Shown here: one piece after another, positions 583-63,159 of the stretch
Layout: each line of letters begins with the position of its first letter
How positions within the stretch are numbered: the first letter of the stretch is position 1
Source: Gracilariopsis chorda
Lineage: Eukaryota > Rhodophyta > Florideophyceae > Gracilariales > Gracilariaceae
DNA length: 64,000 bases
Direction: 5' to 3'
Assembly (NCBI GenBank): GCA_003194525.1
Contig: NBIV01000024.1
Coordinates: 124,001 to 188,000 of the forward strand
Made by a program: the position numbers and the translations under genes
The notes under the pieces: model-generated
The model's database searches: none
What the model was told of the DNA's origin: nothing
What the model saw: the letters and a program-made list of their open reading frames with translations, nothing else

Positions 583-1497
583 TGTAGTGCAATACATTCC
601 CGCGTACGGGCGATGGTGAAACTCATATCTGAGGTGTACTCGGTGCGAGCGATGAAGCGGGATGCATGAATTTTAGCCCCCGTTTACCGGGCTAATTAGC
701 GGTCGGGTTACCCAGGGTGGTTATGGGAACATTCATATTTTGTGGTACTTGCCTGGCAAGGGTGGTGGACACGTGGCTACAGCCCCGGCCAGGAGGCCCA
801 AAACGGCTACTTATTTTAGTGTAGTTTAGGGGTTAATTTTACTTAGGCTAGTGCACTACCTACTGTACTGCACTGAGCTAGTACTTGAGCGTCGGCCGCA
901 CGACGGCGAGCTCACCAAGAAAAGTAAAAGGAGAGTTCGGCTCTGACTCTATTCGCCATGCGAAGTGTCTAACTCCTCGCGGAGGTACACCGCTTGCCCG
1001 GTAGTTTCACCCGACTCGCACCACCGAGGAGACCGTGCTCGTCGTACCCAGTGGGTTGTGACCACTCGTGGTATTCATTGTTGTCGTGTGACCGCCCGTA
1101 CAGGCCCTATCTCCGCCCCAGTTTTGGGTATTGATATTACCGACGTGTGTCGTGAGACCGTGAGACCATCTCTTCCCCTCATATCCCCTAACCGCCGCGC
1201 GGTGCGTGTTCGTGTGTGTGTATCGGCACCCCCCTCCGGGGTCTGTTCCCGCTTTCCGCACGCCCCCGTCGGGTGGTCCCTTTCCCTCTTTTGTTCCCCT
1301 GTTCGCAGGCTACTTCCGGACCAGCCGTGGTTCCGACCCGTTCTAACCCCTAAACCTCCGAGGTACATCCAGGCTCCCGACGGAGTTACACCCGTCATAC
1401 GGGACACGGAGGGCTCTACCCAGCTGGGCCTACCTCTCCAAGAGAGCAAGGCTTCGAGCTGCCTTGGGTGCCTTTCCCACACCGGGATTGCACCAAA
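583..1497 (+). repeat. E1 5' LTR (915 bp)
   Basis: Begins TGTAGTGCAATAC and pairs base for base with 11261-12175, without net indels. By eye it differs at four sites, one in the terminal ACCAAA versus ACCACA. The ends form an imperfect inverted repeat (TGTAGTGCAAT / ATTGCACCACA). The open frame at 965-1594 is repeated in the other LTR at 11643-12221 and is probably not coding. Confidence 0.93.
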
Positions 1498-1499
1498 AG

Positions 1500-1518: not shown

Positions 1519-1627
1519 GGGTTTGGCTTTCAATCTGGCCTGTCGGAAGTCCGCTTCCCCTTTTCCCTTTTATCCCTTTTTGCTCATTCGTTGAGATTCC
1601 CAAGCCGTGGGACTGGTGAAGTAAGCC

Positions 1628-3688
1628 GTGGACGGCTATCTGCAGTATGCTGCCCACAGCTCCGAGTTCCCCCAGGAATGGTCCGCAACGGAACGCCGCA
1701 GCGGCGAGATCACGAAGGTCCGTTCCGGAACAACTACTTACCGATGCCGTCGGTCTGGAATCCCAAGGAATCCCATCGGCAACCTCGGTGCCTCGAGCCG
1801 TGACAGCTGTGGCCACTACGCCACCTCCGGTGGTCGAAACGCCGTCGGCTGTCCCCCGAGACCCGGGTCGCCTAAGTACCATCTCCTCGAGTCGAGAATC
1901 GACATTGCCAATGTGGCCCACGCCTCCCTCTCGCAGCAAGTTACCGAGTTGGAACGGCGATGGAGTGACTCCCTGGCTCGGGATTATTCGGGAGATATTC
2001 GTCTCCTGAGAGCTGATGTGAATTCCATTCTGGAGTGTCTGGGTACTCCGGCTGCCTTCGTAGAAGGATATCGGAAGTTCGTGGAGGAAGTTAAAACCCA
2101 TATGATGCGGGTAACCGGACGTATGGACACGCTGGAAGCGTTGCTCAGAGAAGACCTGAACGCTCCGAGACAGGAGGAAGTGAAGGTCATCTCAACCCAA
2201 CACCGCTCCAGTCACCTCCCCCGTCACCCTGGAAAGAGAGTTCATCGTTATGAAGTTTCGTCAAGTTCCGACTCGGAAACAAGTTCGAGTAGCTCGTCTT
2301 CGAGATCATCGCGTGATGGGAGAGGCCGCCGTCGCGGAGAAGAACCTAGTTCGAGGGCTACCTACACCTCCCATGGAGCAATCCGTGCGCGGGAGAAAGG
2401 TCGCCGTCATTTCGGCTTGAAGGAATTGAAACCGACGAATCCCCTTTACAGGAAGCTGTTGTCCTATCGTTATTACCGACTGGAAGACTCTTCGGGCACT
2501 CGAAGTTCGAGAGACACCGGTCGGGTGAAGGATCTCATACGTCGTATGAATGTGACGATGCTTAAGCAGAAGTTCTCCGGTGAAGATCCGATCCTCGTGT
2601 TGGATTTTCTGGCCCGCCTTGTGCAGGAAGCAGACGTACTCGAAATGAGTGAGGCGCAGGCATACGTTGCGTTGCCCTACTTTCTTTCAGGAATGGCTGA
2701 AGATCAGTACAACTCGGTCAGGGGTTCGTCCAGGGCCTCAGAAGGAGGTGTTACGTGCTGGCCCGAGGCTGTACACTACCTGCCCAGGTCGTACGCGACG
2801 GGAACTGCAATCAGTCAAGCCATCGTGGCGGTTCGCGATACGAAACAGAAGCCTGGTGAAACGGAAACGTCGTATTCAACTCGCTTGAATAAAGCGTTTC
2901 ATCGTTGTGGAAATGTTTTTACCGCTTTTGAGCGTTGCTCCATGCTGGTGGATGGTTTAGATCCTGGTATCAGGGCACTGGTGTCCCGCTACAGGGAAGA
3001 GAAGCGCAAGGCGACGTATCTGGAACTGGTCCAGTACGCGCAGGCTGAGGGTGACACCCTCAGAGCGAGAGACCCGAGGCGTCGGTCATCGAAGGCTCTC
3101 TTCGTCGAGAACGAGGCTTCCTCGGCATCTCTCCCTAACCCGGGACCACCTTCCGGATTTGCGGATAACATCCAGTATCTTGGCAGTCTTGAACAGTCGT
3201 TGGCAACCTCGGAACTGCCGTCCACGGTTACACCCCCCGTGGTAGATCCGGCCTTTTACGCAAACCCCGGTCGGGTTCCCCCAGCCCCGCTAGCCTACGC
3301 GTCGAGCGCCACACGGCACTCCCGCCCGGGATGGTCCAACCCGAAGCAACTAGCATTACAACCACAACACCCTCAGCACCGCGGAATGATGTCCCAAGCC
3401 ACCGGAACACGTTCAGCCCCGCTGATTTGCTACATTTGTTACCTTGAAGGTCATACTGCGTCGCAGTGTACCCTCCCCATTCGCGAGATGTGGAAGATCG
3501 TGGGAAATTATGAGAATCTCCCACCGGAGCATAAGGCTCGTGTCCCGAGTAATTCGTATGAAGACGCAAAGGCTGCGGTCCACAATGCTCAAGCTCGAGA
3601 AGCCGCGAAAACCGCGAACGGTAACAACCCTAACCTTTCGGAACAGGCTCAGCCGCACCCAGCGGTTGATTCGGTCCCGAAAAACTAA
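1628..3688 (+). CDS. gag: E1 Gag (686 aa)
   Basis: Structural capsid/nucleocapsid protein that should assemble the cytoplasmic retrotransposon particle. Residues ~210-235 are a serine-rich stretch followed by basic residues. The central part (about 270-450) matches the Gag core of E2 (42680-43873), with shared segments such as FLAR/FLSR, MSEAQA and WPEAV. Residues 601-614 are a CX2CX4HX4C zinc knuckle (CYICYLEGHTASQC) for RNA binding. The ATG at 1628 is the first start that gives the full frame, about 110 bases after the primer-binding site; no other start was checked. The frame is unbroken and ends at TAA 3686-3688, where pol begins in the -1 frame. Confidence 0.88.
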   Translation: MDGYLQYAAHSSEFPQEWSATERRSGEITKVRSGTTTYRCRRSGIPRNPIGNLGASSRDSCGHYATSGGRNAVGCPPRPGSPKYHLLESRIDIANVAHASLSQQVTELERRWSDSLARDYSGDIRLLRADVNSILECLGTPAAFVEGYRKFVEEVKTHMMRVTGRMDTLEALLREDLNAPRQEEVKVISTQHRSSHLPRHPGKRVHRYEVSSSSDSETSSSSSSSRSSRDGRGRRRGEEPSSRATYTSHGAIRAREKGRRHFGLKELKPTNPLYRKLLSYRYYRLEDSSGTRSSRDTGRVKDLIRRMNVTMLKQKFSGEDPILVLDFLARLVQEADVLEMSEAQAYVALPYFLSGMAEDQYNSVRGSSRASEGGVTCWPEAVHYLPRSYATGTAISQAIVAVRDTKQKPGETETSYSTRLNKAFHRCGNVFTAFERCSMLVDGLDPGIRALVSRYREEKRKATYLELVQYAQAEGDTLRARDPRRRSSKALFVENEASSASLPNPGPPSGFADNIQYLGSLEQSLATSELPSTVTPPVVDPAFYANPGRVPPAPLAYASSATRHSRPGWSNPKQLALQPQHPQHRGMMSQATGTRSAPLICYICYLEGHTASQCTLPIREMWKIVGNYENLPPEHKARVPSNSYEDAKAAVHNAQAREAAKTANGNNPNLSEQAQPHPAVDSVPKN

Positions 3689-6600
3689 TCTTGGGAGTCT
3701 CCCCCACGGGAGGGGTGTCTTCCAAGCCGAAGTTGAAGACGCCTGAGGCGCCACCGCTTCGCTCCCCTTCCAAAATCCTTACGAGGAAACTGGCTCAAGA
3801 AGACGTGAGCTCGGACCACTTAGTGGCTCTGCGTCGTCCGTGGATACGGTCCCGTAACCTCCGCATCCCGGATCGAGTTTTGGTAATGGCCAAGAGGAAC
3901 TATAAAGTTTATAGTGACCTCGGTCTCTCTAACCAGTTCATGGTTCGTCAGTTATCTGTCCTGGATACAGGTGCCGCTCCGAACCTGATCAATATCGGGA
4001 TTATTCCACCCGCCATGCGGAAATGCATTCGCATTGGTCCAAGTCTGGATCTGGCGGACGCTAATAACAACCCGCTCCAGACTCTTGGAACAATTCCTCT
4101 GGTACTCAGACTAGGCACCTACGTGGTAAAGTTGGACTTCATCGTATGCGATTCTCTTGCTGCACCGGTCATCCTCGGTTGTGATTTCTGTGACCGCTTC
4201 GTGGAAGCTATCCGCCCTCGCTCCAGATCCGTGGAATTGGCCAACGGTTCGACCATCCCGATTGTACGGAAGCCCTTGCGACACGCCTCCCGTAAACGGG
4301 TACCTTTACCTGCTGCTCAGGAAGCGTCCAATGTGGATCGAGCATCTACGAAGATTCGCGTCGCGGAACCAGTTTCGATCCCGAAGGAATCTCAGGTGTG
4401 GGTCTCAGTAACATCCAAACACCACGGGTTGCAGGTTGTTCAACCGCTCCCCTCGCTCTACGAACAGCGCCGTCTCGCATTAGCAAATGGGATCGTATCC
4501 GTCGAGCCGGACAAACCCTTTAAGGTTCTCGTTGCTAACCTCGGAACTACCACTCAGTGGTTGGTTAAAAACCAGGTCCTGGGCAACATGCTTCCGCATC
4601 CGTTGGCTATCCTTCCTACAAAGATTCTGATATCCGACGTTCTCGGAATACAAGACCCTAAGGAGGGGGAGGAGGTCCCGTTCGTTCCGTTGGATCCCGC
4701 CCGGGAAAGTTCAGATTCGACTGTCGAAGAAGCTCAGAAGAGCACAGCTTCAGCATCGGCAGATACTGCGTTAGACCCAGAACAGGCTTTGGATAAGTTG
4801 GACCTGGATCACATTAATGAATCTCATCGTGAGAAGTTTCGTGACATGCTCAGGGACTTTACCGCCATGTGGGACGGTTCCCTGGGGACGATAGGGGTAA
4901 CCGAACATCGGATTGATTTGTTGCCGGATACACGGCCTATTGCACAGCACCCGTATCGGGCAGGCCTTAAAGCAAGGGGGGAAGAGAAATCTCAGGTGGA
5001 GAAGATGCTGCGAGCTGGAGTTATTGAAGCACCACAATCCCCTTGGGCTTCTCCTGTTGTCCTTGTTCCGAAAGCCGATGGATCTTGGCGTTTCTGTGTG
5101 GATTACCGCCCCCTGAATGCGGTTACTGTCAAGGACGTCTATCAGATTCCACGAATGGACGAGTACATTGACTCCCTGGGGAGCGCAACGGTGTTCACTA
5201 CCCTTGATGCCAATTCGGGATACTGGCAGGTCCCTATTAGGAAAGAAGATCGTGATAAGACCGCGTTTGTGTGCCATCAAGGACTATATCGCTTTAAGCG
5301 AATGCCGTCTGGACTAACGAATGCCCCAGCTACATTCCAACGGGCAATCGATATCCTCTTGGAGAGGTTCAAATGGACCAGCTGTCTGGTATACTTGGAC
5401 GACATTATAGTGTTCTCCAATAACTTGGACGATCACCTGTCCCATGTCCGGGAAGTCTTGACAGTGCTCCGCAACGCGGGCATCACCCTGAAGCTGGGAA
5501 AGTGTGAGTTCTGCGCCGACTCGGTAAAATATCTGGGACACATCATCCGCCCCGGACAGCTTTCTATCGATGAAGCAAGAGTGAAATCACTTCGAGAGGC
5601 GAAACATCCGACTAATCAAACGGAGCTTCGATCCTTCCTAGGACTTTGCAATGTATATCGCCGATTCGTCTCGAACTTCGCCGACTTGTCAGCACCGCTT
5701 AACGCACTCCTCCGGAAAGGACAACCCACCGAACTGGACGTCTTTGACGAGGCTGAGTCGTCAGCATTCTGGTCTCTTGTCGACGCTGTAACGTCCCCGC
5801 CAGTTCTGGCCTTACCGCACCCGGACTTACACTTCGAAGTGGATACTGACTCAAGTGCCCACCAGGTGGGTTGTGCGTTGTTTCAAGTCACGGAAGAAGG
5901 AGAAAGACATCCGATCGGATATTGGTCACGTTCGTTGAACGTTCACGAGCGCAACTACTCGGTGTCCGAGAAGGAGTGTCTTGCTGTTGTTTGGGCGTTG
6001 GCAACGCTTTGCCCATACCTTATGGGTAACCATTTCAAGGTTCACACCGATCACTCGGCTCTCCGTTGGCTACTCGAAATTCGAGAACCGTCGGGCCGCC
6101 TCATGCGTTGGCGTCTCCGACTCTCGGAATTTACATTTGATGTCCTCTACAAGAAGGGATCCCTGAATACTCAGGCTGACGCCCTATCGCGCTTAGGAAC
6201 ATCAGCGGAAACCGAACCGGTCGACGATCTGGAAATACCATGCTTCATGGCACAATCCCCGGAGGGAACGGAAGAAGACGACCCAGACGTGAATGGGGAT
6301 GACATCTGTGATGATATTCTGGCTGCAAGCCCTACGGATCCTCCGGATGGCCAGGTTGTTCCCATATCCTCTGAGGAAATGATCCGTGAACAACAGCAGT
6401 ATCCTTTCTGTGCCCAGATTCGTGCCCGTCTTAACGGGGGTGCACAGATACCCTTTGCGGTGAACGATCGAGGCTACCTAGTCAGGTCGCTGACACGGGC
6501 CCCACAGATCGTTGTACCTCACACGCTGCAGCAGCGCGTCTTGCATCTATCGCATTACGCGAAGTTGGGTGCACATCCCGGCGGGAGGAAACTATACCTG

Positions 6601-7293
6601 ACCCTTCGCAGGGACTTCTATTGGCCTGCTATGGCATTTGACTGCTATGCAGTTCGCCGCTCGTGCGTGGAATGTGCGAAGAATAATGTGAAACTTCGGA
6701 AGTACTCGAAGAAGTTAACACTATTCCCGGCACGGGCGCCACTCGAATATGTCGCTATTGATATCATGGGCGAGCTTGTCAAAACCAAACTTGGTTACAA
6801 GTATCTTCTCGTCATTACTGACCGCTTCTCAAAGTTGGTGAGAACAGTACCGCTTAAACGGATTACCGCGGACGTGGTTGCGCGTGCGTTCGTAACCCAC
6901 TGGGTCTTTACTTACGGCCCGCCGGTACATCTACTCTCCGACAACGGATCTCAATTTACCTCAAAGTTCTTTCAGGACGTATGTAGAATCTTAGGAATCA
7001 AGAATATGTTTACTACCATCTACCACCCGCAGTGTAACGGACAAGTGGAACGATTCAATCGTACTATGCTCAACGCACTGCGCGCGTATGTCGCGGATCA
7101 CCCCATGGAATGGGACTTGTACACGGACGCTATTACGTACGCGTATAACACCCAGTACACCGGGTCACGACCCTCGCTCCATTTGAGCTGGTCCTGTCTC
7201 GGATTCCGCCACCCATGGCTATTGAAGCGCAACCGAACGTCTCGGGGTACCCTTCACCAAGGTTATATCGAGATTCCTGGAAGGAATGGTTGA
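3670..7293 (+). CDS. pol: E1 Pol: protease, RT, RNase H, integrase (frameshifted at the end)
   Basis: Replication polyprotein, probably made as Gag-Pol; no ATG precedes the protease in this frame (the in-frame codon at 3691 is TTG). Numbered from 3691: protease with DTGA near residue 92, reverse transcriptase with YLDD at 568-571, RNase H with acidic residues near 718-720, then the integrase HHCC zinc finger and catalytic D1024, D1084 and E1120, giving a D-x35-E spacing. All catalytic residues are present. From about 7166 the frame departs from the E2 sequence because one base is missing, and it runs to an out-of-frame stop at 7293. The true integrase C-terminus continues at 7215-8246 in another frame. 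Confidence 0.92.
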   Translation, partial: FGPEKLILGVSPTGGVSSKPKLKTPEAPPLRSPSKILTRKLAQEDVSSDHLVALRRPWIRSRNLRIPDRVLVMAKRNYKVYSDLGLSNQFMVRQLSVLDTGAAPNLINIGIIPPAMRKCIRIGPSLDLADANNNPLQTLGTIPLVLRLGTYVVKLDFIVCDSLAAPVILGCDFCDRFVEAIRPRSRSVELANGSTIPIVRKPLRHASRKRVPLPAAQEASNVDRASTKIRVAEPVSIPKESQVWVSVTSKHHGLQVVQPLPSLYEQRRLALANGIVSVEPDKPFKVLVANLGTTTQWLVKNQVLGNMLPHPLAILPTKILISDVLGIQDPKEGEEVPFVPLDPARESSDSTVEEAQKSTASASADTALDPEQALDKLDLDHINESHREKFRDMLRDFTAMWDGSLGTIGVTEHRIDLLPDTRPIAQHPYRAGLKARGEEKSQVEKMLRAGVIEAPQSPWASPVVLVPKADGSWRFCVDYRPLNAVTVKDVYQIPRMDEYIDSLGSATVFTTLDANSGYWQVPIRKEDRDKTAFVCHQGLYRFKRMPSGLTNAPATFQRAIDILLERFKWTSCLVYLDDIIVFSNNLDDHLSHVREVLTVLRNAGITLKLGKCEFCADSVKYLGHIIRPGQLSIDEARVKSLREAKHPTNQTELRSFLGLCNVYRRFVSNFADLSAPLNALLRKGQPTELDVFDEAESSAFWSLVDAVTSPPVLALPHPDLHFEVDTDSSAHQVGCALFQVTEEGERHPIGYWSRSLNVHERNYSVSEKECLAVVWALATLCPYLMGNHFKVHTDHSALRWLLEIREPSGRLMRWRLRLSEFTFDVLYKKGSLNTQADALSRLGTSAETEPVDDLEIPCFMAQSPEGTEEDDPDVNGDDICDDILAASPTDPPDGQVVPISSEEMIREQQQYPFCAQIRARLNGGAQIPFAVNDRGYLVRSLTRAPQIVVPHTLQQRVLHLSHYAKLGAHPGGRKLYLTLRRDFYWPAMAFDCYAVRRSCVECAKNNVKLRKYSKKLTLFPARAPLEYVAIDIMGELVKTKLGYKYLLVITDRFSKLVRTVPLKRITADVVARAFVTHWVFTYGPPVHLLSDNGSQFTSKFFQDVCRILGIKNMFTTIYHPQCNGQVERFNRTMLNALRAYVADHPMEWDLYTDAITYAYNTQYTGSRPSLHLSWSCLGFRHPWLLKRNRTSRGTLHQGYIEIPGRNG
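3679..3685 (+). promoter_or_regulatory. Putative -1 ribosomal frameshift site, E1 gag/pol
   Basis: The last sense bases of gag are G AAA AAC followed at once by the TAA stop. A one-base slip back continues in the pol frame, which is open from 3670. The site is near the X XXY YYZ consensus; the equivalent place in E2 is the canonical GGGAAAC. A small hairpin (CTCCC 3699-3703 with GGGAG 3708-3712) lies downstream and could stimulate pausing. This is inferred from sequence only. Confidence 0.65.
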
Positions 7294-8246: not shown

Positions 8247-8686
8247 CCAGTTTCGTGGTGAGCTGAAAAGCAACCGCGGACACGGAGAGTGCGGTTGACA
8301 CTGCGTGCGTTACCGCAGAGCCCCACAAATGGACACTGTGACGCCACTGTCACGCGGACGAAGCCCGAAATTCCAAACCGTGGAAAGGTGTACACTTACA
8401 TACCGCCGGCCGGCGTCAGGAGTACAGTCAAGACCCGCGTCGTGGAAAGACCGCGCGCGACACTTGCCGCCAGCGGCCAGCCAATCACAGTGTGTGATGC
8501 ATGGCAATCCGCCTCCTGGCATCGGACCCGTAGTGAACCGCCTCCCTCACCGTGAACGGTCAAACTCACCAGAGTTGCACGGGTCGCGTGGGAGAAGAGC
8601 TCGCGAGCTGCGCGTCAATAGGGGAATCCGGTTAGAACGGAAGGCCCCCCCCCACAAGGAGAGGATTAGGAAGCGGAAAGACCGCA

Positions 8687-9031
8687 ATGCGGTATCAAGT
8701 CCCAGCACTCGCAGCGTCGAGGAAAGCTGACTTTGCCCGCAGGGTCGCGCCAATTTCAGGCAAGTCCCCTCACAGGGTTCTCCCCTTAAGCCCTGCCATG
8801 ACGGGTCAGGAGCCGGCTACGTACGACCAGGAGTTTGTCGTTGACCACATCGTGGATCATGTTCTAGACTCCAGAGGAGTGTGGTTTTACCAAGTCCGAT
8901 GGTACGGATACCCCCCGGGAGAGGACGCATGGGAGCCCATTCAGCACCTTCCTCGTTCCAAGGTGATAACCTACCACCGCCGGACGCGGTTCCCACTCCC
9001 ATCCAATTTGGACATGGCCCAGGTTGGGTAG
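8687..9031 (+). CDS. E1 chromodomain protein or Pol C-terminus (114 aa)
   Basis: Residues ~45-100 form a chromodomain: FVVDHIVDHVL, then WFYQVRWYGYPPG and AWEPIQHLP, with the aromatic positions expected of a methyl-lysine cage. In chromoviruses this domain sits at the integrase C-terminus and steers integration to marked chromatin (family knowledge). Here it is in a different frame from the integrase tail ending at 8246, so it is either cut off by mutation or made separately from the ATG at 8687 or 8798. In E2 the equivalent domain is also split off, there by in-frame stops. Confidence 0.8.
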   Translation: MRYQVPALAASRKADFARRVAPISGKSPHRVLPLSPAMTGQEPATYDQEFVVDHIVDHVLDSRGVWFYQVRWYGYPPGEDAWEPIQHLPRSKVITYHRRTRFPLPSNLDMAQVG

Positions 9032-9367: not shown

Positions 9368-10620
9368 TTAGGATGAGCCGCTCGTTGGCGGTTGGTAGTT
9401 CGCAGATGCGAAAGCCAATAACTCGCTCACGCTGGTGAGGTTGGAAGGCGCAACCACTCCAATGGACTGGAGGTGAGCCCTGAGGGCAACGGCCTGAGGG
9501 TCCACGGGGACCGGAGATGCGGTAGACGGAGAAGCAGCCGCACTGGCGGCCATATTCCAGCCATCTGGAGCAGCCACATGCTGGCCGGATCCGTCGAGAT
9601 CGTCGACCATCGCCGCTCCCGGGGCTACGGCCTCCTCCACCTCATCGGGGTCGTCATCCACCATTGGATCATCCTCGTAGGAGCCGTGCCAGTCATCGGA
9701 AAACATGAACCCAACCGGGTGGCCTCGCGGAACGGAGCGTGGTACATCGCGTAACGCTAGCGCGTGAGCCCGTGAAGTCACGGATACCTCCCAAGGGTCA
9801 TAGAAGACGAAGTTGCCAGCGTTTGGATTTCTCCGGCCTGGAGAGCGATCATGCCTGGAAGGTTCACCGTCAGGGACGTTGGAGGCTGGGACTGTATCCC
9901 AGTTAACCATATCGATGGTGTTCAGAAGGCACTGAAGCTCATCCACATTGGCTTCGGATCCCAGAGGGATATAGAGATCCAATCGGCGGATAACCTGGCG
10001 TAGGTAAGGAGGAATGTACCACAGACGGTTCTTGTCGTACACCTCCCAGAGGAGAAACGCGGCAACGCGAGCAGCCCATTTGGCGAGGAAGAGAGTCCAG
10101 TAACCGGAATCCGGATTGTTGATTAATCGTGAACCGATGTAGCTGAGGCACGGAGGCATCTCCGCAAAGCATCCCCTCGGGACTTCGAACCTGCTCCACC
10201 AATGGGGAAGAGGTGCATACCGGCCGCGCATCGCGGATGGACGGAGCCTCTCGACCTCGAGATTTTGGTATGGTACCAGGAACCCGAAGCGGGAGCGCGC
10301 CTTTCGCTCAAACCGGAGTCGGTCGAAGAAGGATCCGCGATGATTCGGACGACGAAGATATCGGAACTCTGCACGCAGAATTGGGCGCCTCCAGAGGAGC
10401 ATCCCGGCTTCGATTGGAGTGGACCGGAACGGTGTAGATGGCTGGTAGGCAGCAAGGTTCTCGCAATATGAGACTTCACCGTAGGTACGGTACCGCGAGA
10501 GGTCAAAGCTGTATTCCGTTGGTATCAGCTCATCCGGATAACTCGCGCGGGCGAGACGGTCGTAGGCGACCTTGGCCATCCCGGCACGGGCTTCATTCAG
10601 CGTCTCGAAACCATATCTGG
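9368..10620 (-). CDS. E1 antisense protein, C-terminal 400+ aa
   Basis: Unbroken minus-strand frame; the ATG at 10579 opens 403 codons, and homology to E2 continues upstream of it to about 10620. The segment VPRGCFAEMPPCLSYIGS, then SGYW, AAFLLWEVYDKNRLWY and LDLYIPLGS, matches the minus strand of E2 (49415-50290) residue by residue with many substitutions. The middle is aromatic and Arg-rich, with a hydrophobic stretch; the last ~130 residues are acidic and Ala/Pro-rich. No catalytic motif or known domain is seen. It lies tail to tail with pol and ends 336 bases after the chromodomain. Function unknown. Confidence 0.7.
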
Positions 10621-11210
10621 TGCGCTTCCGTGCGAGGAACTGTGGCTCTACCGCGATACGCGGTTCTCCAGTCGAAGGAGTCGACCAAATCCCGGCCTAG
10701 TCCCCCTGGGAGCTCGCCCTCCTCCACATAGGAGTTGATGAGGTCCGAGTCGGAAACCCATGTGGGGTGGAACCAGGGCGCACGCGAAAAGAGGAGAGCG
10801 TCTTCCTGGGGATTGCGGGCCCAAAGTGTCGATGGTGACACCCAGCCGGCGGCGGTCGCAGTGATCGGTATCGCTTGAGCGGAATTCCAGGCGGCGATAC
10901 TCGCGGCATCCGAGGCATCCAAGGTTGGAACATGAGACGATCCTCCAGGCAGAGGCAAGGAGAGGAACCCAGAGGTTGGGTGACGAACCCGCGACCCCAG
11001 CGTCGCGGAGGAAGGTTGTCCGCTCGCGGAAGTCCCCTGCGGGGCGCTCGCAGGCGGGTTGTTCGAGAACGGAGTGTTGGTCATAGCAGAGAGGGGCGCA
11101 GAGTCTGTTGAAGAAGGTACTGAGGGTTGATCAGTTGTAACCGTGTTGGTACGGGGGACCGGTATCTCGGCGGTTCCCTTGTCGGGACTATTTATACCCT
11201 CGCGCCTCAT
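10593..11210 (-). CDS. E1 antisense protein, N-terminal part, frameshifted
   Basis: Minus-strand frame starting at ATG 11210 (the frame is open to 11270, inside the LTR), 51 bases inside the 3' LTR border. The first ~110 residues are low-complexity Ser/Thr/Pro/Ala. Then APWFHPTWVSDSDLINSYVEEG matches TWFFPAGVRNEELNRSYVV in E2. It ends at a stop at 10593 one frame off from the 403-codon frame, so a single indel near 10610-10620 splits what was probably one protein of about 610-630 residues. Confidence 0.6.
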   Translation of the reverse strand: MRREGINSPDKGTAEIPVPRTNTVTTDQPSVPSSTDSAPLSAMTNTPFSNNPPASAPQGTSASGQPSSATLGSRVRHPTSGFLSLPLPGGSSHVPTLDASDAASIAAWNSAQAIPITATAAGWVSPSTLWARNPQEDALLFSRAPWFHPTWVSDSDLINSYVEEGELPGGLGRDLVDSFDWRTAYRGRATVPRTEAHQIWFRDAE

Positions 11211-11247
11211 CTCCTCACGCCTATACTCACGTTCGTTTTCGGCCCTT

Positions 11248-11260
11248 AAGGAGGGGAATG
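11248..11260 (+). promoter_or_regulatory. E1 polypurine tract
   Basis: AAGGAGGGGAATG directly abuts the 3' LTR start TGTAG, the normal place for plus-strand priming. E2 has CCCTTAACGGGGGTGATG at the same place, so CCCTTAA plus a G-run is shared. Confidence 0.7.
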
Positions 11261-12175
11261 TGTAGTGCAATACATTCCCGCGTACGGGCGATGGTGAAAC
11301 TCATATCTGAGGTGTACTCGGTGCGAGCGATGAAGCGGGATGCATGAATTTTAGCCCCCGTTTACCGGGCTAATTAGCGGTCGGGTTACCCAGGGTGGTT
11401 ATGGGAACATTCATATTTTGTGGTACTTGCCTGGCAAGGGTGGTGGACACGTGGCTACAGCCCCGGCCAGGAGGCCCAAAACGGCTACTTATTTTAGTGT
11501 AGTTTAGGGGTTAATTTTACTTAGGCTAGTGCACTACCTACTGTACTGCACTGAGCTAGTACTTGAGCGTCGGCCGCACGACGGCGAGCTCACCAAGAAA
11601 AGTAAAAGGAGAGTTCGGCTCTGACTCTATTCGCCATGCGAAGTGTCTAACTCCTCGCGGAGGTACACCGCTTGCCCGGTAGTTTCACCCGACTCGCACC
11701 ACCGAGGAGACCGTGCTCGTCGTACCCAGTGGGTTGTGACCACTCGTGGTATTCATTGTTGTCGTGTGACCGCCCGTACAGGCCCTATCTCCGCCCCAGT
11801 TTTGGGTATTGATATTACCGACGTGTGTCGTGAGACCGTGAGACCATCTCTTCCCCTCATATCCCCTAACCGCCGCGCGGTGCGTGTTCGTTTGTGTGTA
11901 TCGGCACCCCCCTCCGGGGTCTGTTCCCGCTTTCCGCACGCCCCCGTCGGGTGGTCCCTTTCCCTCTTTTTTTCCCCTGTTCGCAGGCTACTTCCGGACC
12001 AGCCGTGGTTCCGACCCGTTCTAACCCCTAAACCTCCGAGGTACATCCAGGCTCCCGACGGAGTTACACCCGTCATACGGGACACGGAGGGCTCTACCCA
12101 GCTGGACCTACCTCTCCAAGAGAGCAAGGCTTCGAGCTGCCTTGGGTGCCTTTCCCACACCGGGATTGCACCACA
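11261..12175 (+). repeat. E1 3' LTR (915 bp)
   Basis: Matches 583-1497 with a constant offset of 10678. Differences seen are G to T near 11891, G to T near 11969, G to A near 12105, and the terminal ACCACA. It is followed by AGAAC. Confidence 0.93.
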
Positions 12176-12180
12176 AGAAC
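12176..12180. repeat. 3' target-site duplication of E1
   Basis: AGAAC, the partner of 578-582. Confidence 0.85.
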
Positions 12181-12904: not shown

Positions 12905-15490
12905 TTGTACAAGAGCAAAAGATCCAGCAAGCACAACAGGAAACTGGTCATGTGTCACCATCACAGTTCGCATAAATGGAACATAACTTTATGCCCAAAG
13001 ACTCGGTCAATTGGCACGGTATCTGTCAAACCAAAGCATGGATGTACAGTTATCTTGGCACGAAGAGGACCGCCTTCTCTCTTCATTACTATCAACATGA
13101 ACATCTGGCAATAGAAGATCCAGTGCCTTGGGATATGGAAAACAGCCATCGTAGCGCATTTACAGCATAGAATGAATCCCTCAACAATTTGGCAGACCGG
13201 ATCTGACTGCAAGAGTATAGAAACAGTACATCACTGTATTGATAAGAAAATTGGAGAAGAAAGTGGAGCAAATATTTGGAATGAAGTGATTAGGGCTTGC
13301 ATCAAGCTTACGTTTCAAGAACGCAATGTCCCTCATGACCACATGCTCGTTTGGCTCGAAGAAGGCGTGATTAAAGAAGTTGATATGATTGAAGAGCTGA
13401 TTCGTGGAGACGTGCCCCTTCCCAGTGAGTATGACGCATTGCTTGCCGTCATTCGTTCCATGCGCTGGCACTGACAGCCCTTCCATTGCAGGAATTGCGC
13501 TGAGCGTTGCAAGTTTGGATACGATAGAAAATTAATTGTGCTAGAGACGTAAATTGAAGGAACGAGTCACGTGATGTACCACAGAAGAAGGCAGAAAGAC
13601 ATCAAGATTGTGCCATACAACCCAAATCTGACCAACAAGTACCTCTTTTATCTCAACGTAGAATGCAAGCGAGGGAGGGGGGGGCGGAGTAACCTATCTG
13701 ATGAAGGACGCATTTAAGCAGCCCAAAGCACAGGAGGTGGTGCTCAATGTGAATGGTGCTGATGAGATAGGCACCCATAACGAGCCACTACAAGAGCCGC
13801 AGGTGCAGAAAGACATTAGTGCATACATGCCTGCGCGTGTGGTGGGCGGTGTTAACGCAAGCTGGGATGCTTTTTGAGTTTTGCCATCTGCACATTATAG
13901 CTAAAGTTGAACGACTCGCCATTCAATTGGGAAGAGAGCGAACGCTTCTGCTCAGATTTCTAAACCTGCTCCTTTCTGCATCACAGCCGTCTGTGCTGGA
14001 GGGATACTTTGCAAGGCCCGAAGCATATGCAAATCTCGGCTATATTTCATAATTTGAAAAGTTACGTTTCTATCGCACGCTTCCTGGTCGTGTGCCTAAT
14101 CAACATGACAGAGCAGCACTCAAGATCCCAAGGACGACTCTGTTCTGCCAATGGACGCAGTAGAGCGGATGGAAGAGGAGCAATGCGTCGCAAGAATCAG
14201 AGGGGTGTCACCATCCAAAATTGAGCTTTTGCTCTTTGCGTGCTGCTGATGAATCACGGCTTGAGATCTTATGAAAACACAAAGAATATGAACGGACAGC
14301 TTAAAACGAATCGGAATCGGTGATTGCAAGCAGACTGCTCGCGGACGTAACCGAGTTTGATATTGCGTCCCAAGAGCAGTGCAGATCTACACCACACCCG
14401 CAGAGTTACGACGTTTGGTTCTTACATTATAATAGCAAGGCGTAAAAACACAGAAAAAGGCCGGTCAAGAACTATGGGGCACTATGTGGCGACATGCATA
14501 GAGGCGGTGAGCAGAATCGAAATCAAGAGATGTATCAACGCATGGTAGAGATCTCAGACTGGCCCCGTGGTCGACTGCTTCGCGATCACAAAATCTTATC
14601 ACAGCACATGCAACAGGGTGGTATAGCCTTGAATGAGACATGTTGAGTTACAACAAATCAAGGCGTGCGCGTGATGCGAAATGAGTTAACGTTGCATTCA
14701 AGATATGCGAAGTTAACATATCGCTCAAGACAAGTCACTGAAACCTTCATTGCCGCATTTCAACCACGACAAACGCTACAAGAGCAAACAATCAGTGCAG
14801 GGAAGATTTTCATTTTGCAGGGATCTGCAGGCAATTAAAAGACGTATCTGCTCAACCTACTCTGCGATATCACAGAGTCAGAAAGATTTTTTGCCGGAAG
14901 AACTGCCAAGAAGGGCATTGCACCATCGTGGTTAGAAAGTGGCCAAACTTTACATACCCTGATTGGACTAGGAGTAGCTGATACGGACAGAACAAGCAGC
15001 ACTATATCGATTTTGTCCAAATACGGTCCCCGATCTCGACATGCAGAAATGATTTGCGAAATACAACTGCTGGTCCTGTAAGAAGCATCTTCACAAAAGC
15101 TTTTTGAACTCATGGATGCGTTGCTCAAAGATCGTAGCGGCAATTGAATGAAAAATCCACCTCCAGTTGGGAGTGTGACGATCGTTCTATCCTGCGACTA
15201 CTCACAGCTGCTTTTAGTTGTACCGCAGGTACACATGGAAGATAAATGGACCTTTTGCTCGGTTTAAGTGCTGTACTTCACCAAATAAATATGCCAGCCG
15301 ATGATCCACGATTTGCGTCACTGTTTAGTTCCATTGCTCGCAAGACCCTATCCAACAACGCTTCAATACCACTCACTGTCTCCAGCAGGGCGCAAAATTG
15401 TTACGAAGGTCTATGAACGTGGCTCAAAATACGACGCAAGAAGGATATGGACCTCAGCAAAATGATCATGATCTGCATCCGTGTGTTGTT
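12905..15490 (+). mobile_element. Helitron relic I (Rep plus Pif1-type helicase, badly decayed)
   Basis: Rolling-circle transposon remnant. Near 13040-13110 the frame reads ARRGPPSLFITINMN, like the Rep segment before the HUH motif. 13172-13474 matches the Rep fragment of Helitron II (FQERNVPHDHMLVWLEEG versus FKERNVPHHHMLVGLDGG). Near 14800-14860 is a ruined Walker A (GSAG, then a stop, then KT), and near 15180-15240 VTIVLSCDYSQLL. Matching pieces are spread over all three frames with many stops, so it cannot be expressed. It is the oldest of the three related Helitron segments here. Confidence 0.8.
13172..13474 (+). pseudogene. Helitron I Rep fragment
   Basis: 100-codon piece whose residues ~30-95 (EVIRACIKLTFQERNVPHD, then HMLVWLEEG and DMIEELIRGDV) match the Helitron II Rep fragment at 56740-56940. 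H-D-H here corresponds to H-H-H there, the two-histidine motif of HUH nucleases. The start codon is incidental. Confidence 0.65.
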
Positions 15491-18899: not shown

Positions 18900-19043
18900 A
18901 CGTATTGCTTTGTCATAGATACCTTCCTGAGCTCAGAACACATCAAAATTCCCTCACTCCCTACTAATAAGCCACCCGCTCACCATCCGCACAACTTTTC
19001 CACTCTCTCCGTCCCTCGCCACCGCCCGTTCCAAGCCCCACCG
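18900..19043 (+). promoter_or_regulatory. Likely 5' region of the zinc-finger gene
   Basis: Strongly pyrimidine-rich, C-rich sequence immediately before the ATG at 19044, including a run of C at about 18881-18893 just upstream. No clear TATA box is seen. Assignment rests on position only. Confidence 0.25.
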
Positions 19044-20066
19044 ATGGACCCCACCACTACCCTCTCTCCCTCGCAACCCTCCTCCTTCGTCTCCGCTTCT
19101 GTCCCGTCTCTCTCACTTCACACCCCCCCATTTCCTCCTGACACCGTCTTCACCTCCGTGCCTATCCCCTCCCAACAGCTCCCCACCTCTGCAACACTTA
19201 CTCCGTCATATTCAATGGACTCTCGCTGGCCTGATCTCGACTTTTTCGAGCTTGGCCCATCGCCTCCCCTCTCGTCACCCTCGGCCACAGCCACGTCCTG
19301 GGTGCTTCCTACCCACACCTCCCCCATCCCTCCCCAAGCTCCGCCTACTATCCCATCAGACGATCTTGCAGCTATATCGCTAGTGCCGTCCACCCAACCC
19401 TCCGTCAACACTGCCTGGACATCCACCCCCCAGTTACCGCTGTCTTCCTCGCCTCCGGAAGAATCCACCTCTGCCTCAACTCAACCGAACTCGGCTTTGT
19501 TCAACCTCCCGGCCCTGGACTTATGTGTTGGAACATCTGCCTTACCGTCTATCATACCTCCGCCCCATCACAATGAATCGTCGCCTCGCTCTGCCCTGCA
19601 TCTTTCACTCACCCCACCTCACTTCGCACAACTAACGAAAAGCCACCCTATTTACCATGACCAGTACCCCACTCCTCGCCCGAGAATTCACAAACAAACC
19701 CGTCGATACACCGCCCCTAAGAGCTCTCGCTACTGCCATTTGTGTGCCCGTCACCAGCGATCCGTGACCATGGTGCCGTGCGGAAACGTCCAGCTTGGGT
19801 TGTGTCAGAAGTCCGTCTGCACAAAGTGCATCGCCACTTACGGGTTAGATGTGCGAGTGTCCAACTGGGCATGTCCACATTGCTGCAACTCGTGTCCAAA
19901 GCGCGCCAAGTGTTTTTCCTACGACCGCCAGACCGCAAGGAGGAGGGAGAAGACATTGATTGCCAAGCTGAATTCCGTAATACGCTCTAACTCTAGCAAA
20001 GTGCATCCCTCACACTGCGTCATATCCTCTTCCGCCCGCATTTTGCACCCAGCATCCTCAACGTGA
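19044..20066 (+). CDS. Cysteine-rich zinc-finger protein, 4CXXC_R1-like (340 aa)
   Basis: Residues 1-225 are low-complexity Ser/Pro/Thr and probably disordered. Residues 231-290 hold a dense cysteine array: C231-C234, C246, C254, C259-C262, C277-C280-C281, C284, C290, including CHLCARHQRSVTMVPCGN and WACPHCCNSCPKRAKC. This spacing resembles the zinc-finger domain of MAO-A repressor R1/CDCA7 proteins, which bind DNA in the nucleus. A basic tail with RQTARRREK follows. The frame is single-exon with no stops, and codon use is C-rich, unlike the AT-rich TE relics nearby. I take it as a real host gene. Identification of the finger is from memory of the family; the regulatory role is inferred. Confidence 0.75.
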   Translation: MDPTTTLSPSQPSSFVSASVPSLSLHTPPFPPDTVFTSVPIPSQQLPTSATLTPSYSMDSRWPDLDFFELGPSPPLSSPSATATSWVLPTHTSPIPPQAPPTIPSDDLAAISLVPSTQPSVNTAWTSTPQLPLSSSPPEESTSASTQPNSALFNLPALDLCVGTSALPSIIPPPHHNESSPRSALHLSLTPPHFAQLTKSHPIYHDQYPTPRPRIHKQTRRYTAPKSSRYCHLCARHQRSVTMVPCGNVQLGLCQKSVCTKCIATYGLDVRVSNWACPHCCNSCPKRAKCFSYDRQTARRREKTLIAKLNSVIRSNSSKVHPSHCVISSSARILHPASST

Positions 20067-24819: not shown

Positions 24820-25388
24820 CAAGCAGTGGAGTCCAGGATAATAATTTAAAAGACCTCATTTCTTAGATAGTGAACCTAACGCTCTTTGTCAAAGAGAAAA
24901 AAACACTTCTAACGAATAGAACGTTCTTTTGGTTTTTGTTCTGCCACAGGCCAGGACATTGGGCAAATCGCTGTGACAAGAATCCGCACCGGAATACTAG
25001 ATTCCCTCAATGAGGGACAATGAGGCATTCGGAAGCTATGCATTGGTCAACGTCACAGATATTGGAGCCAATGATCGCTGCAAAAGACGAATACGTGAAA
25101 GCAGAAGGAGATAAATCTAGATATCCTGGAAACGATAAGGAATACCCAGTTGGGATAGTGACTGAAGACAATGCAAAAATAGACGATGTTAATGCTACAA
25201 AGAGAGATTCTGAGATCAATGCTCTGCTTATGCAGCCAAAAAGGGAAACAAGGGCCGGAAAGAAGTTGGAAAACTATCAGCTAGGTCCTATCGTTTACAT
25301 TACTAAAGGTCTACCAAGTCAAAAGAGGATTAAGCGCAAATCTCGCAAATCATCCTGAAAGAAGGCCCAGATAGCCCGAAAAGGTGGA

Positions 25389-26906: not shown

Positions 26907-26927
26907 TCCGATAATATAGATGATCAC

Positions 26928-27539
26928 TTGATGCTTTGTGAAAAAGTAATTGGTAGAACTGCCTGGCATGGGTTGAAGATTAAGCTGGCTATGTGTAGTT
27001 TTGCGCCGTTGCAAGTGAAGCTCTTGGGAAATATCATCGATAAGATGGGAATCGCGACAGACCCAGAAAAGATCAAATCTATACAGGACGCTCCACGTCC
27101 AGCCTTCGCAACGGAACTAAGAAGTTTCCTTGGACTGGCCAGTTGCTATCGACGGTTTGTACCTAGGTTTGCTGAAGCATCCATTGCCTTGCATGAGGCC
27201 ATGTCACCAAATAAAAGATGGCTCCGGACCCCAGAAATGGAAGAAAAATTCCTGGATCTCAAGCCAAATTTGGTGAAACACCCTGTTCTGGGATTTCCAG
27301 ACTTTGATGAAGCCTTCTTAGTTGAAACTGATGCATCCAGTGTTTCACTAGGGGCTGTTCGTTCTCAGAAAAGAGAAGGCAAACTACATCCAGTACAGTT
27401 TGTTAGCCGTACGATGACAGTAGCTGAGAAACGCTACTCAACCTGCGAACACGAAGCATTAGCAATCATCTTTGCATTGAAAAGTTTTCGTGTTTATTTG
27501 CTGTCCTCTCTCCCATTCAAACTCATTACGGATCACTAG
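26928..27539 (+). pseudogene. Element D RT thumb and RNase H
   Basis: Same frame as the upstream RT. It reads GNIIDKMGIATDPEKI, ELRSFLGLASCYRRFV (RT connection), then LVETDASSVSLGAV and KRYSTCEHEALAIIFALKSF (RNase H). It ends in TAG directly after LITDH, where RNase H normally continues. Confidence 0.85.
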
Positions 27540-30146: not shown

Positions 30147-30563
30147 ATCTGATCATATATTTCCTCGGACCTACGTTTCCTGATAGCACAGACACCTTGT
30201 TGACATCTCATCGGCTGGAATACTTCTGATTATTGCCCTCACGAGCACTGTACGGTCTTTTCTTGGTGGGTTTGGTAGCGATTCATTTTCCAGGAATCTC
30301 ACCTCCAAGAGTTCTCTCATTAGTGGTATGGGTTCTTGCCATCTTTAAGTGATATTCTGCTACTATAACTTTGTAAGTCAATTTTTACTAACAGTATACT
30401 AGAGAACTAATACACTACCTTAGTACGTCTCAATTAATATGAAGTCGGCTTACATTAGCTTTACAGCAGTTGAACTAACGACGGTAATTGACTTCGTGGA
30501 ATAAACAAATAAATAAGAGAATCAGCTTGAAAGACGAGGCAGAAAGAAGTATATTCGCACGGT
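30147..30563. other. Spacer, no gene recognised
   Basis: Probable 5' flank of the minus-strand gene at 29286-30146. No TATA box stands out and no repeats were found. Confidence 0.35.
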
Positions 30564-40144: not shown

Positions 40145-40163
40145 CAGTATTAGAAGACAAACT

Positions 40164-40985: not shown

Positions 40986-41689
40986 TGTAGCATTGAGGAT
41001 GCAATGGATTCGGAATGCCGACTATCGCTTAAGTTGGGGGATTCAACTCATCAATTGACGTTGAGGTTAACGCTACTGAGCGACAGCTATGAAAAGAACT
41101 GTCTCATGTGTGGCACACTAGTGCAGTTGTACACCTGTACCACCCTGGCACCCATTGCCAAATAATTTATTCGATATTTTATTCTAGTCCCAAATAGTGG
41201 CTAACCACACGTGTAAGCTTGACAGTGAGGCCGTCGCGCTGCCCTTATGGGCCTAGTAAAGGGCTGAAGCCCAGGTGAGAAAGGCGGAGGCTAACCAACG
41301 ACCAACGTCTTACCCAAGTGGTACACTACAGGAATCCTAAGTCTTTTACGACATGGGAGGGCCTGTAGCACCAGTGCCTAACGGTATCTGAGCTACAGCT
41401 GTCGTTCCGAAGATCTCCTCATATTCCTGTCATTACTGACTCCCGTTTCACCCCTTTTACTTGGCGTTGTGTGCTGTTTTCTCAGGTAATCCTGTGCTGT
41501 ACTCGACACCGAGATCTCCGAACCCTCCGACTCTTCGTCCGTTCGTGCACTCACGAGACATCACCGTTTGGGACCCAGGCCTGTGTACTAGACAGTCGCC
41601 CGCAAGGCGGCGCCCGCTTACGCGGTTACCTGTGGATACCCACCTCTGCTACCGAGACCCTACAGTCGTTGGTGGAATACCACATAAAC
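40986..41689 (+). repeat. E2 5' LTR
   Basis: Starts TGTAGCATTGAGG and ends CCACATAAAC just before the primer-binding site. It aligns with 51214-51919 with scattered substitutions and a divergent patch near 41565-41595. Confidence 0.88.
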
Positions 41690-41708
41690 TGGTCTCCCGA
41701 CCTAGAAC
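41690..41708 (+). promoter_or_regulatory. E2 primer-binding site
   Basis: TGGTCTCCCGACCTAGAAC, identical to the E1 site at 1500-1518 although the flanking LTR sequences are unrelated. Confidence 0.75.
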
Positions 41709-48322: not shown

Positions 48323-48982
48323 GTGCAGCACGCTGCTCCTTCCTCACGGAAGCTTGCGGAGATCGCGCACAAGTCGCCCAAGGACACCCGACCAGACGGC
48401 CGTTCCGAAGTCCAAACGGAGGAGCCCGAGCTCAATAAGCAACGGCCACTCGCTGAAAGAGATGAAGGCGAGAGCGCCACGCCAGAGGTCACACTGTCGC
48501 GCGTCGACTCCGGAAGTGCAGAAGCACGGAACCGTCGCGACATCTCCGCAGAAGTAACTGCGCAGGATGACACGGATTTCAGAGCAGTGGCAGGACCACG
48601 CAAGAAGGTTGTTTCGGCTGACTCGACGTTAGGGGATGCTGTGCAACAAGGCGACAGCCCCAACAAGCCGAATACAGTACCACCGGAAAAGGAGGAGCCC
48701 CCATGGGCAATTATCGAGCACAAAGCGACGGGAAGCGTCGTGGGACCGCCAATTGAATCGGATCAGCCGAAAAAGAAGTTGAAGGCAACCGCCGAACCGG
48801 AGGAAACCAGGAAGTCTAGGACAATGGGCCGGGAACGGGCCGTCGTTAGGAGCCCTGACATGCGCCAACTCGCGACTCGAGATCTTTCGTCGCGAGGCGA
48901 CCAAATCGAGGAAACTCGTAAGGTCACTGCCACTGCCGAGGGTGAACCCACAGAGATGGGAGAACCCGAGCCTGCTGAATAG
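48323..48982 (+). pseudogene. E2 Pol linker before the chromodomain
   Basis: 219 codons in the integrase frame after stops at 48074-48300. Charged and Pro/Ala/Glu-rich, without a domain. TAG at 48980-48982 separates it from the chromodomain, which is in the same frame. Confidence 0.55.
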
Positions 48983-48997
48983 TACGTTATAGAACGT

Positions 48998-49210
48998 ATG
49001 GTGGCCCACGGCTGGGACGATGAGGACAACAGTTCGCTGTTCAGAGTACGCTGGTACGGATATCCGTTGGATAGCGACACCTGGGAGCCCACCCCTCATC
49101 TTCCGCGATCTCAGGTGTTAGTCTACTGTACGCGCGTGAAACTGGATGTCCCAGAGAATATCGATGACGCTCTCGTCGGTATTATCGTCTTAGGACGCAC
49201 TAGCTCGTAA
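48998..49210 (+). CDS. E2 chromodomain (70 aa from ATG)
   Basis: FRVRWYGYPLDSDTWEPTPHLP is the chromodomain core; YVIER just before the ATG, after the TAG, is its first strand, so the domain was once joined to Pol. Residues after ~45 match the E1 tail loosely. As in E1 the domain is now detached from integrase. Confidence 0.75.
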   Translation: MVAHGWDDEDNSSLFRVRWYGYPLDSDTWEPTPHLPRSQVLVYCTRVKLDVPENIDDALVGIIVLGRTSS

Positions 49211-49414: not shown

Positions 49415-50290
49415 TCACGCGTTTGTGTTTGGACCGCCGTCCATGCGGAGACGCAAGAGGTTCAGCATCTGCTGACGACCACTGGGGATCTGTTCAGGTG
49501 GAATGCCAGCGTCTAGGAGGAATTGCCTTAACATTCCGAGTTCGCCCTCGTTGCCCGTACCAATTGGTTGACTAGGCACCTGAGCAGAGGTCTGCATCGC
49601 CGCAGCACTCGGTTCGACGTCGTCGGCGGCATATGGTGAAGACACCTCCATGGCTTCCCCTTCCGCCTCAGCATCGGCCTCGAGATTCCCCAGTTCGTCG
49701 ACGTTAGCGTCAGGATTGACCGGAGCCGGTTCAAATACGTAGCCAGTGGGCTGAGCTGGGGGTATCGCTCGTGGATTCTCGCGTAGGTGTTTTGCCTGTG
49801 CGCAATCGATGTGCTGATTGGTCCACGGATCATACCACAGGAAGTCACCGCCAGGGCCGTTTCTCCCCGGGGAGTGATCGAAGTCATGTGACCCACGCGC
49901 TGCCTGTTCAGCTGGCACAAGGTTCGAGTTAATCTGTTCTATTACGTCTATCAGACGACGGAATTCCTCCTGGTTGGCTCGTGAGCCAAGTATGAAGGAT
50001 AAGTCGAGTTCTCTCGCGTATCGCCGAGCAGTTGGGCTCATGTACCACAAGCGGTATGTGTCATAGACGTCCCACAGGACGTACACAGCCACCTTGGCAA
50101 TGAATTCGGTGTAGACGACTACCCAGTAACCGGAAAACGGATCGTTCGTGAGGGCAGACCCCACGTAGGTCAAGGCAGGAGGGAGCTCCACAGCGCAACC
50201 ACGAGGACTCTCGATCTCATGCCAGTGCCTCGGGATAGGGATGTAGCGCTCAGGGCGCGAATGGAACCGCACTTCGTCGATCTCCAACAT
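49415..50290 (-). pseudogene. E2 antisense protein, C-terminal part (291 codons)
   Basis: Minus-strand frame matching E1 9368-10579: SPRGCAVELPPALTYVGS, SGYW, VAVYVLWDVYDTYRLWYMSP, LDLSFILGSRANQEEF. The acidic, Ala-rich C-terminus is also conserved in character. It stays in the same frame as 50351-51121; only stops at about 50296-50298 (TAA) and 50351-50353 (TGA) separate them, and the bases between still encode ERRARSRLRYVVP, which matches E1. Confidence 0.75.
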
Positions 50291-50350
50291 TTTTTATGGT
50301 ACAACGTACCGGAGTCGCGACCTCGCGCGTCGCTCCCACCTTGGGAAGTC

Positions 50351-51121
50351 TCAGTAGAGGATGTCGCGTTTGCGAAGGAAGCGGAATTCCGCACGGATCT
50401 GAGGATTGTCGAAGCAGAGCGCTGCGTTGGAAACGCTGCGGACCCCTTGCCATTGACGGATATCCAGATGAGCCAGGTTCTCGGCATATGCGTAAGCTTC
50501 TCCGCCTGTGCGGGCATACCAGGTGTCGAAATTCCAATTCTCATTCAAGGGAACCGTCCCAATGAGGCGACGCATCCGCATATATACCAGTCGCACGAAA
50601 TTTCTGCAGGCCTCCACCATGGATTCGCCATGGTGACGAGTTATTGCGCTATCAGGCAGTGCACAATGGCTCAACCAATCTGTTGTGTATAAGGCAAACC
50701 ATGGTACACCGTCAGGAGGTCGACCGGCGACCACGTAGCTCCTGTTAAGCTCTTCATTGCGGACACCCGCTGGGAAGAACCAAGTAGCTCGTGTGTACAC
50801 GTTCAAGTTTCGCAAAGGGCCATGCCCCACCAATTCCGAATACGAAGGGAAAGAACCCGCGGGGATCGGTGGTTGTGGAGCCTGTACGCCAGGAGGCAGA
50901 AGATACGCGGGAACCGCTGGCCCAGAAAAGCTTTGCCGCAATGGCGCAGTTTGTGACAAAGGTGTCGGATGATGACCTGAAGCGGCTGCAGGCTGAGCAG
51001 GAGCGTCTAGATCGTCATAGAACGACGGCAGAATCATGTAGGGTGGATATTTGTTCATTGTGTGGACACAAAACGAAGCAAGGACACTTGAGAGAGTGAG
51101 ATTGGTATCGCTTGTGTTCAT
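50351..51121 (-). pseudogene. E2 antisense protein, N-terminal part (256 codons)
   Basis: Starts at ATG 51121, 93 bases inside the 3' LTR border. Residues ~95-140 match E1 (TRATWFFPAGVRNEELNRSY) and the end (AYAENLAHL... RAEFRFLRKR) matches CENLAAYQ...RAEFRYLRR. With the C-terminal part it makes about 570 codons in one frame. No signal peptide or known domain; function unknown. Confidence 0.7.
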
Positions 51122-51198
51122 TGAAGAGCGAGATGATGTGCAGAGAGCTGCTTGGCGAAGTCGCTTTTAAACGCTCTTGCGTCGCGCGCGCTCCGCCC

Positions 51199-51213: not shown

Positions 51214-51919
51214 TGTAGCATTCAGAATGCAATGGATTCGGAGTGCCAATTATCGCTTAAGTTGGGGGATGCAACTCATCAATTGACGTTGAGGTTAACG
51301 ATACTGAGCGACAGCTATGAAAAGAACTGTCTCATGGGTGGCACATTAGTGCAGTTATACACCTGTACCACCCTGGCACCCATTGCCAAATAATTTATTC
51401 GATATTTTATTCTAGTGCCAAATAGTGGCTAACCACACGTGTAGGCTTGACAGTGAGGCCGTCGCGCTGCCCTTATGGGCCTAGTAAAGGGCTGAAGCCC
51501 AGGTGAGGAAGGCGGAGGCCAACCAACGACCAACGTCTTACCGAAGTGGTAAACTACAGGAATCCTAAGTCGTTTACAAAATTGGAGCGCCTGTAGCATC
51601 AGTGCCTAATGGTATCTGAGCTACAGCTGTCGTTCCGAAGATCTCCTCATATTCCTGTCATTACTGACTCCCGTTTCGCCCCTTTTACTTGGCGTTGTGT
51701 GCTGTTTTCTCAGGTAATCCTGTGCTGTACCCAACACCGAGATCTCCGAACCCTCCGACTCTTCGTCCGTTCGTGCACTCACGAGATATCACCGATCGGC
51801 AGCCGAGCATGTGTTAATAGACATTCGACCGCAAGGCGGCGCCCGCTTACGCGGCTACCCGTGGATATCCACCTCTGCTACCGAGACGCTACAGTCGTTG
51901 GTGGAATACCACATAAACT
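51214..51919 (+). repeat. E2 3' LTR
   Basis: Aligns with 40986-41689. It ends CCACATAAAC(T) and is followed by AAGCATTCAG. Confidence 0.88.
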
Positions 51920-63155: not shown

Positions 63156-63159
63156 TCAT

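Follow-up and report, generated by a model that had tools for sequence, protein, structure and literature searches.

An antisense coding frame conserved among diverged Ty3 chromodomain retrotransposons of the red alga Gracilariopsis chorda

Long open frames on the strand opposite gag-pol raise the question of whether a retrotransposon keeps a second gene there or whether the frame is an accident of composition. This question is posed by a window of 64,000 nucleotides (the whole stretch of DNA analysed, from contig NBIV01000024.1) of Gracilariopsis chorda, in which the interval from the chromodomain to the 3' LTR holds a minus-strand frame in each of two elements, E1 and E2 (Table 1). The available text on the Gracilariopsis genome describes a size of 88.98 Mb and the presence of Gypsy and Helitron elements (PMC5970526). 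Gene content agrees with a red-algal host: light-harvesting proteins gave 15 matches, with eight places free of stops, and phycobilisome linkers gave seven, on seven contigs; the former are not known from glaucophytes. Searches for Fungal_trans, hydrophobin and elicitin found nothing, a weak negative by itself because control genomes gave no match either.

Table 1. Parts of elements E1 and E2, with positions in the window
Feature	Position	Strand	Basis
E1 5' LTR	583..1499	+	99.56% identity with 11261-12177 (self-comparison)
E1 gag-like frame	1625..3688	+	Placement and CCHC-like stretch (by eye); no accepted Pfam match
E1 pol frame	3670..7293	+	Pfam RVT_1 9.4e-38, RT_RNaseH 5.2e-35, rve 2.1e-13 (reverse transcriptase, RNase H, integrase)
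E1 chromodomain frame	8636..9031	+	Pfam Chromo 1.5e-08
E1 antisense frame, C-terminal piece	9368..10696	-	Stop TAA 9370-9368
E1 antisense frame, N-terminal piece, stop to stop	10593..11300	-	Open reading frame
E1 antisense gene, likely start codon	11082..11084	-	Between-group protein similarity begins there; starts by eye
E1 TATA-like box TATAAATA	11189..11196	-	Antisense
E1 polypurine tract, bordering 3' LTR	11245..11260	+	Sequence reading
E1 3' LTR	11261..12177	+	Self-comparison
E2 5' LTR	40986..41690	+	94.05% identity with 51214-51919 (self-comparison)
E2 chromodomain stretch	48944..49180	+	tblastn with E1 chromodomain frame, 41% identity, E=3.3e-14
E2 antisense frame, single frame, in-frame stops 50353 and 50296	49415..51166	-	BLASTP match to E1 piece
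E2 TATA-like box TTTAAAAG	51164..51171	-	Antisense
E2 3' LTR	51214..51919	+	Self-comparison

Reverse transcriptase, RNase H and integrase in this order, together with a chromodomain, lie between paired LTRs (Pfam matches and LTR pairs), and on these features E1 and E2 are classed as Ty3 elements with a chromodomain. E1 is flanked by an AGAAC duplication. The LTRs of the two elements had been described as unrelated in an earlier note on this DNA, and the self-comparison of the window found no match between them at E<=1e-10. Despite the unrelated LTRs, the sequence directly after the 5' LTR, GGTCTCCCGACCTAGAAC, is common to E1 (1500-1518) and E2 (41691-41709) and is likely a shared primer-binding site. 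Integrase is 64% identical between E1 and E2, compared with 38% for the antisense pieces.

Several other features were observed in the window. A 288-aa frame on the minus strand (29286-30152) lies past a further reverse transcriptase and RNase H of Ty3 type (25359-27539). It has no Pfam match and may belong to a different element, as an antisense frame of a second kind; its cysteine/histidine pattern, judged by eye, is presumably reminiscent of a cysteine protease. A 388-aa frame on the plus strand (18900-20066) has a proline/serine-rich N-terminal part and a cysteine cluster, with a match to zf-4CXXC_R1 under the cut-off (E=0.09). Diverged repeats of 75-85% identity with PIF1-helicase-like pieces (13201-15239, 56658-58703, 58823-59997 and 62302-63468) are probably Helitron remnants. 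Two direct repeat pairs, 32536-33332 / 40163-40959 (90.9% identity) and 33817-34485 / 52460-53129 (81.8% identity), are possible solo LTRs or other repeats.

The antisense frame of E1 comprises two overlapping minus-strand pieces in different frames, in agreement with the frame of about 610 codons split by one frameshift that the earlier note had reported. The start at 11210 given there did not stand: position 11084 is the likely start, because protein similarity begins there and the TATA-like box lies downstream of 11210. The frameshift is a defect of this E1 copy, as most of 30 E1-family copies keep the long frame. The homologue announced for E2 was recovered at the same place and orientation, with 80 of 187 residues identical between the C-terminal pieces (43%; E=3e-51, BLASTP). 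One correction applies, since the E2 pieces share a single frame with two in-frame stops and are not separated by a frameshift.

The distribution of the frame was examined in the genome to which the window belongs (91.3 Mb in 1081 contigs). Matches to the E1 piece number at least 96, of which 82 show no stop over the aligned part, and those to the E2 piece at least 135, 92 of them without stops; only the best 95 of 1506 and the best 134 of 1215 candidates, respectively, were scored, so that these counts are lower bounds and biased to intact copies. Random disruption of the frame in other copies, which had been named beforehand as an argument against a gene, is thus not the pattern among the best candidates. 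The 30 best-scoring copies of the E1 family, counting E1 itself, divide into 21 in which a 571-codon frame runs from one common start motif to one common end, three (L012, L021 and L031) in which the motif differs but the long frame is intact, and six, including E1, that are broken. From 74 loci (66 places), 16 representatives were selected because their antisense frame is long and open. In each of them a single frame is open, over 536-694 codons, and 7-33 stops interrupt each of the remaining five. The representatives form nine groups with 29-61% identity between groups, and E2 makes a tenth, 66% identical to L044 over the C-terminal piece. At least ten groups of the antisense protein therefore exist in the genome, with a mutual likeness of at most about 68%. 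What recurs in them is a coding frame opposite gag-pol, between pol and the 3' LTR, kept in many copies. A chance frame is excluded by this recurrence in ten groups and by the stops in the five other frames of the 16 representatives. Of the 74 loci, 38 were inspected, and in 36 of these the 3' end of the antisense frame is followed by a chromodomain on the other strand; at the other two (L035 and L070) the sequence stops about 300 bases past the frame. Distances between antisense proteins correlate moderately with those between chromodomains (r=0.42, permutation p=0.022, 8 groups), which lends mild support to their co-inheritance.

Selection on the protein had been suggested from the many substitutions between E1 and E2, with dN/dS of this pair as the proposed check. 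The pair alone cannot yield the ratio, given that its silent sites are saturated, and three further between-group pairs are also saturated. The two pairs in which saturation is incomplete provide values far below 1, with omega 0.169 for L013-L072 (dS 1.7, likelihood ratio 222 against omega=1) and 0.139 for L047-L048 (dS 2.4, likelihood ratio 229), and selection is upheld by them. The same analysis gave codon-position counts of 174/140/337. The signal within families is weak: seven pairs had omega of about 0.69-1.32 with a largest likelihood ratio of 3.3, as in near-neutral drift. Over 1296 bases of the 30 E1-family copies, silent changes were in modest excess (28 vs 19.5 +/- 3.9 expected), replacements were fewer than expected (37 vs 43.4 +/- 4.0) and new stops were absent (2.1 expected). 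This within-family test cannot by itself pick the strand, because one sense frame with coinciding third positions gives a similar ratio (28 silent and 31 replacement changes, plus stop changes); that frame is closed by stops. Between L047 and L048, segments on the sense strand close to where pol ends are 40-47% identical, compared with 62% (327/525) for the antisense protein below its start. The substitution pattern is that of a gene under selection during element replication and seemingly released once inserted, and the antisense frame is almost certainly a real gene.

Similarity between groups starts at a methionine, followed by N in seven of ten groups (starts set by eye), and identity in five pairs is 48-65% below this start vs 14-34% above it. 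Between the start and the polypurine tract, the best match to TATAWAWR lies at +42/43 or at +64 to +67 from the tract edge in all ten groups. With TATA patterns set post hoc, after the sequences had been viewed, the summed TATAWAWR score was 65 (56.3 +/- 1.9 in resampling), above all of 2000 Markov-resampled sets, and strict patterns occurred in four of ten groups vs 0.33 expected, a number reached by none of the 2000 resampled sets. The TATA-like boxes of L044 and L048 match at 5/8 positions only. Since the ten groups share ancestry, the fixed spacing does not represent ten independent events. These matches make it quite likely that the gene has its own core promoter just inside the element. 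By distance of the box, the groups fall into two sets, L013, L072, L069, L070 and L071 (+64 to +67) and E2, L044, L047, L048 and L067 (+42/43). Promoter spacing and antisense protein seem to have been inherited together, as protein identities show the same split.

The predicted protein has a constant layout in nine groups: an N-terminal tail of 74-101 aa (51-60% P/S/T/N/Q/G), a core of 351-358 aa, an acidic linker of 63-100 aa (net charge -8 to -22) and a C-terminal stretch of 37-41 aa (76 in L072). AlphaFold models of the window pieces had mean pLDDT of 40.2 and 36.3 and contained no usable core; in the E1 piece pLDDT exceeded 90 only around a C-terminal helix pair, and the E2 piece was added without gain. 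Pfam searches with 11 proteins gave no match over the cut-off (best weak matches: E3_binding 0.091, DUF6220 0.097, DUF6127 0.17), and PF04195 (TRP28, Retand) had none at E<=1, in keeping with the earlier view that no relationship to plant antisense genes could be recognised. No homologue was accepted from NCBIfam (four window pieces), PHROGs (10 members), PDB sequences (whole proteins, best E=0.31), IMG/VR, prokaryote genomes or plasmids (one protein), collections that contain almost no eukaryote genomes and hence say little on other algae. For the C-terminal helix pair, assignments to DUF6127 (2/10 members, best E=0.0068), Ish1 (2/10 members, best E=0.078) and PDB sequences (best E=0.22) were considered and not accepted.

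Antisense genes at this place are described in the available text of the literature for the plant elements Grande, RIRE2 and Retand and the fungal element Boty (PMC7264820, PMC11963269, PMC8365987). For Grande, gene23 is reported to be driven by a separate promoter and to encode a protein of the nucleus (PMC7264820, PMC11963269), and brtn of Boty in Botrytis cinerea is an antisense gene between pol and the 3' LTR of a Ty3 element (Zhao 2011 as cited in PMC7264820, PMC8365987). In retroviruses, HBZ of HTLV-1 and APH-2 of HTLV-2 are minus-strand genes at the 3' end of an LTR element and encode nuclear regulators (PMC11963269, PMC7264820), with the HBZ promoter located in the 3' LTR (PMC7264820). 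The excerpted review gives the function of antisense accessory genes in retrotransposons as not known (PMC7264820), and some fungal or spikemoss elements are drawn with an extra open reading frame to which no function is assigned (PMC2864245). In the literature searched, as far as its available text extends, no antisense gene was recognised in red-algal elements.

The gene described here is like those of Retand and Grande in its place and orientation and in the many copies kept, but the Retand family PF04195 has no counterpart among the 11 proteins. Retand also belongs to a non-chromovirus lineage in plants, whereas the carrier here has a chromodomain and its host is most likely a red alga. 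The position between pol and the 3' LTR of a Ty3 element is shared with brtn, a likeness of description rather than of compared sequences, and the host of brtn is a fungus. HBZ and APH-2 likewise are minus-strand genes, read from the 3' side of their LTR element. HBZ belongs to the bZIP proteins and has its promoter within the 3' LTR; here, in contrast, the bZIP family had no Pfam match at E<=1 in 11 proteins and the TATA-like box lies just inside the element body. This kind of gene is already known from plants, fungi and deltaretroviruses, and the likeness to these is put forward as an analogy of arrangement, with no claim of kinship.

The explanation favoured here, which is held to be moderately probable, is an accessory protein gene of a Ty3 chromodomain lineage in a red-algal host, with its own promoter and a soluble, trans-acting regulator as its product. 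The sequences show that the gene runs antisense to gag-pol in the interval from the chromodomain to the polypurine tract, and that its protein is maintained by selection as the elements replicate and diverge. Transcription would begin at the putative core promoter within the element, where the TATA-like box stands 42-67 bases away from the edge of the tract, and the antisense transcript would comprise a short leader followed by the coding sequence of a protein of about 530-600 aa. This protein would be a soluble regulator with a flexible N-terminal tail, a core of about 355 residues, an acidic linker and the C-terminal helix pair. It may act in trans on element expression, silencing or integration, on the model of HBZ of HTLV or the nuclear gene23 product of Grande. 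A trans-acting regulator is favoured by the analogy with HBZ and gene23 and by the coding of the gene apart from gag-pol; drawn from these parallels, the regulatory role is tentative.

The protein could instead be a particle, envelope-like or movement factor coded on the opposite strand, which is rather unlikely. The nuclear location is so far an analogy, and mean hydropathy over 19-residue windows reaches 1.85 in L047 and 1.65 in L048, but the other seven of nine groups lie at 0.94-1.30, so that no membrane segment is conserved. Antisense coding also sets the gene apart from the genomic RNA that makes the particle proteins, and this orientation, together with the lack of a strongly hydrophobic window in seven of nine groups, speaks against an Env-like protein. 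It is improbable that the gene was captured from the host and retains a host-like function. LTR elements with captured genes are known in the available part of the review (PMC7264820), but all flanked loci examined are inside elements, a result from the best-scored candidates in which a single-copy host relative could be missed.

Two further readings give the protein little or no weight. The antisense RNA might be the working part, through double-stranded or small RNA control of gag-pol; such control is discussed for other elements in the same excerpts (PMC7264820), and the antisense gene and pol are convergent. This is nevertheless very improbable, as it leaves the low between-group omega and the codon-position counts unexplained, and the E1 antisense frame does not overlap the chromodomain frame, the end of which is 336 bases away. 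A by-product of a conserved sense frame or of G+C-rich composition would fit a G+C content of about 58% and the many chance frames of 80-160 aa, yet its probability is close to nil. A conserved sense-strand frame, already proposed in the earlier note as a possible cause, was not found, since every sense frame carries 7-33 stops in 16/16 representatives, and a chance frame is ruled out by the between-group omega.

For the favoured accessory gene, a bolder version is offered as a speculative one: a red-algal chromodomain retrotransposon lineage may possess a second transcription unit, separately promoted and directed inwards from the 3' LTR border, which encodes a protein of a new family, a trans regulator or silencing antagonist, which would be a third independent origin after plants and fungi and convergent with HBZ. 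With at least ten diverged groups and more than 200 scored matches in one genome, many of them open, natural variation should suffice to locate the functionally important residues and to probe the role of the protein. The finding would add red algae, and a separate protein family, to the known range of antisense accessory genes, and suggests that a minus-strand gene has arisen repeatedly at this place in LTR elements.
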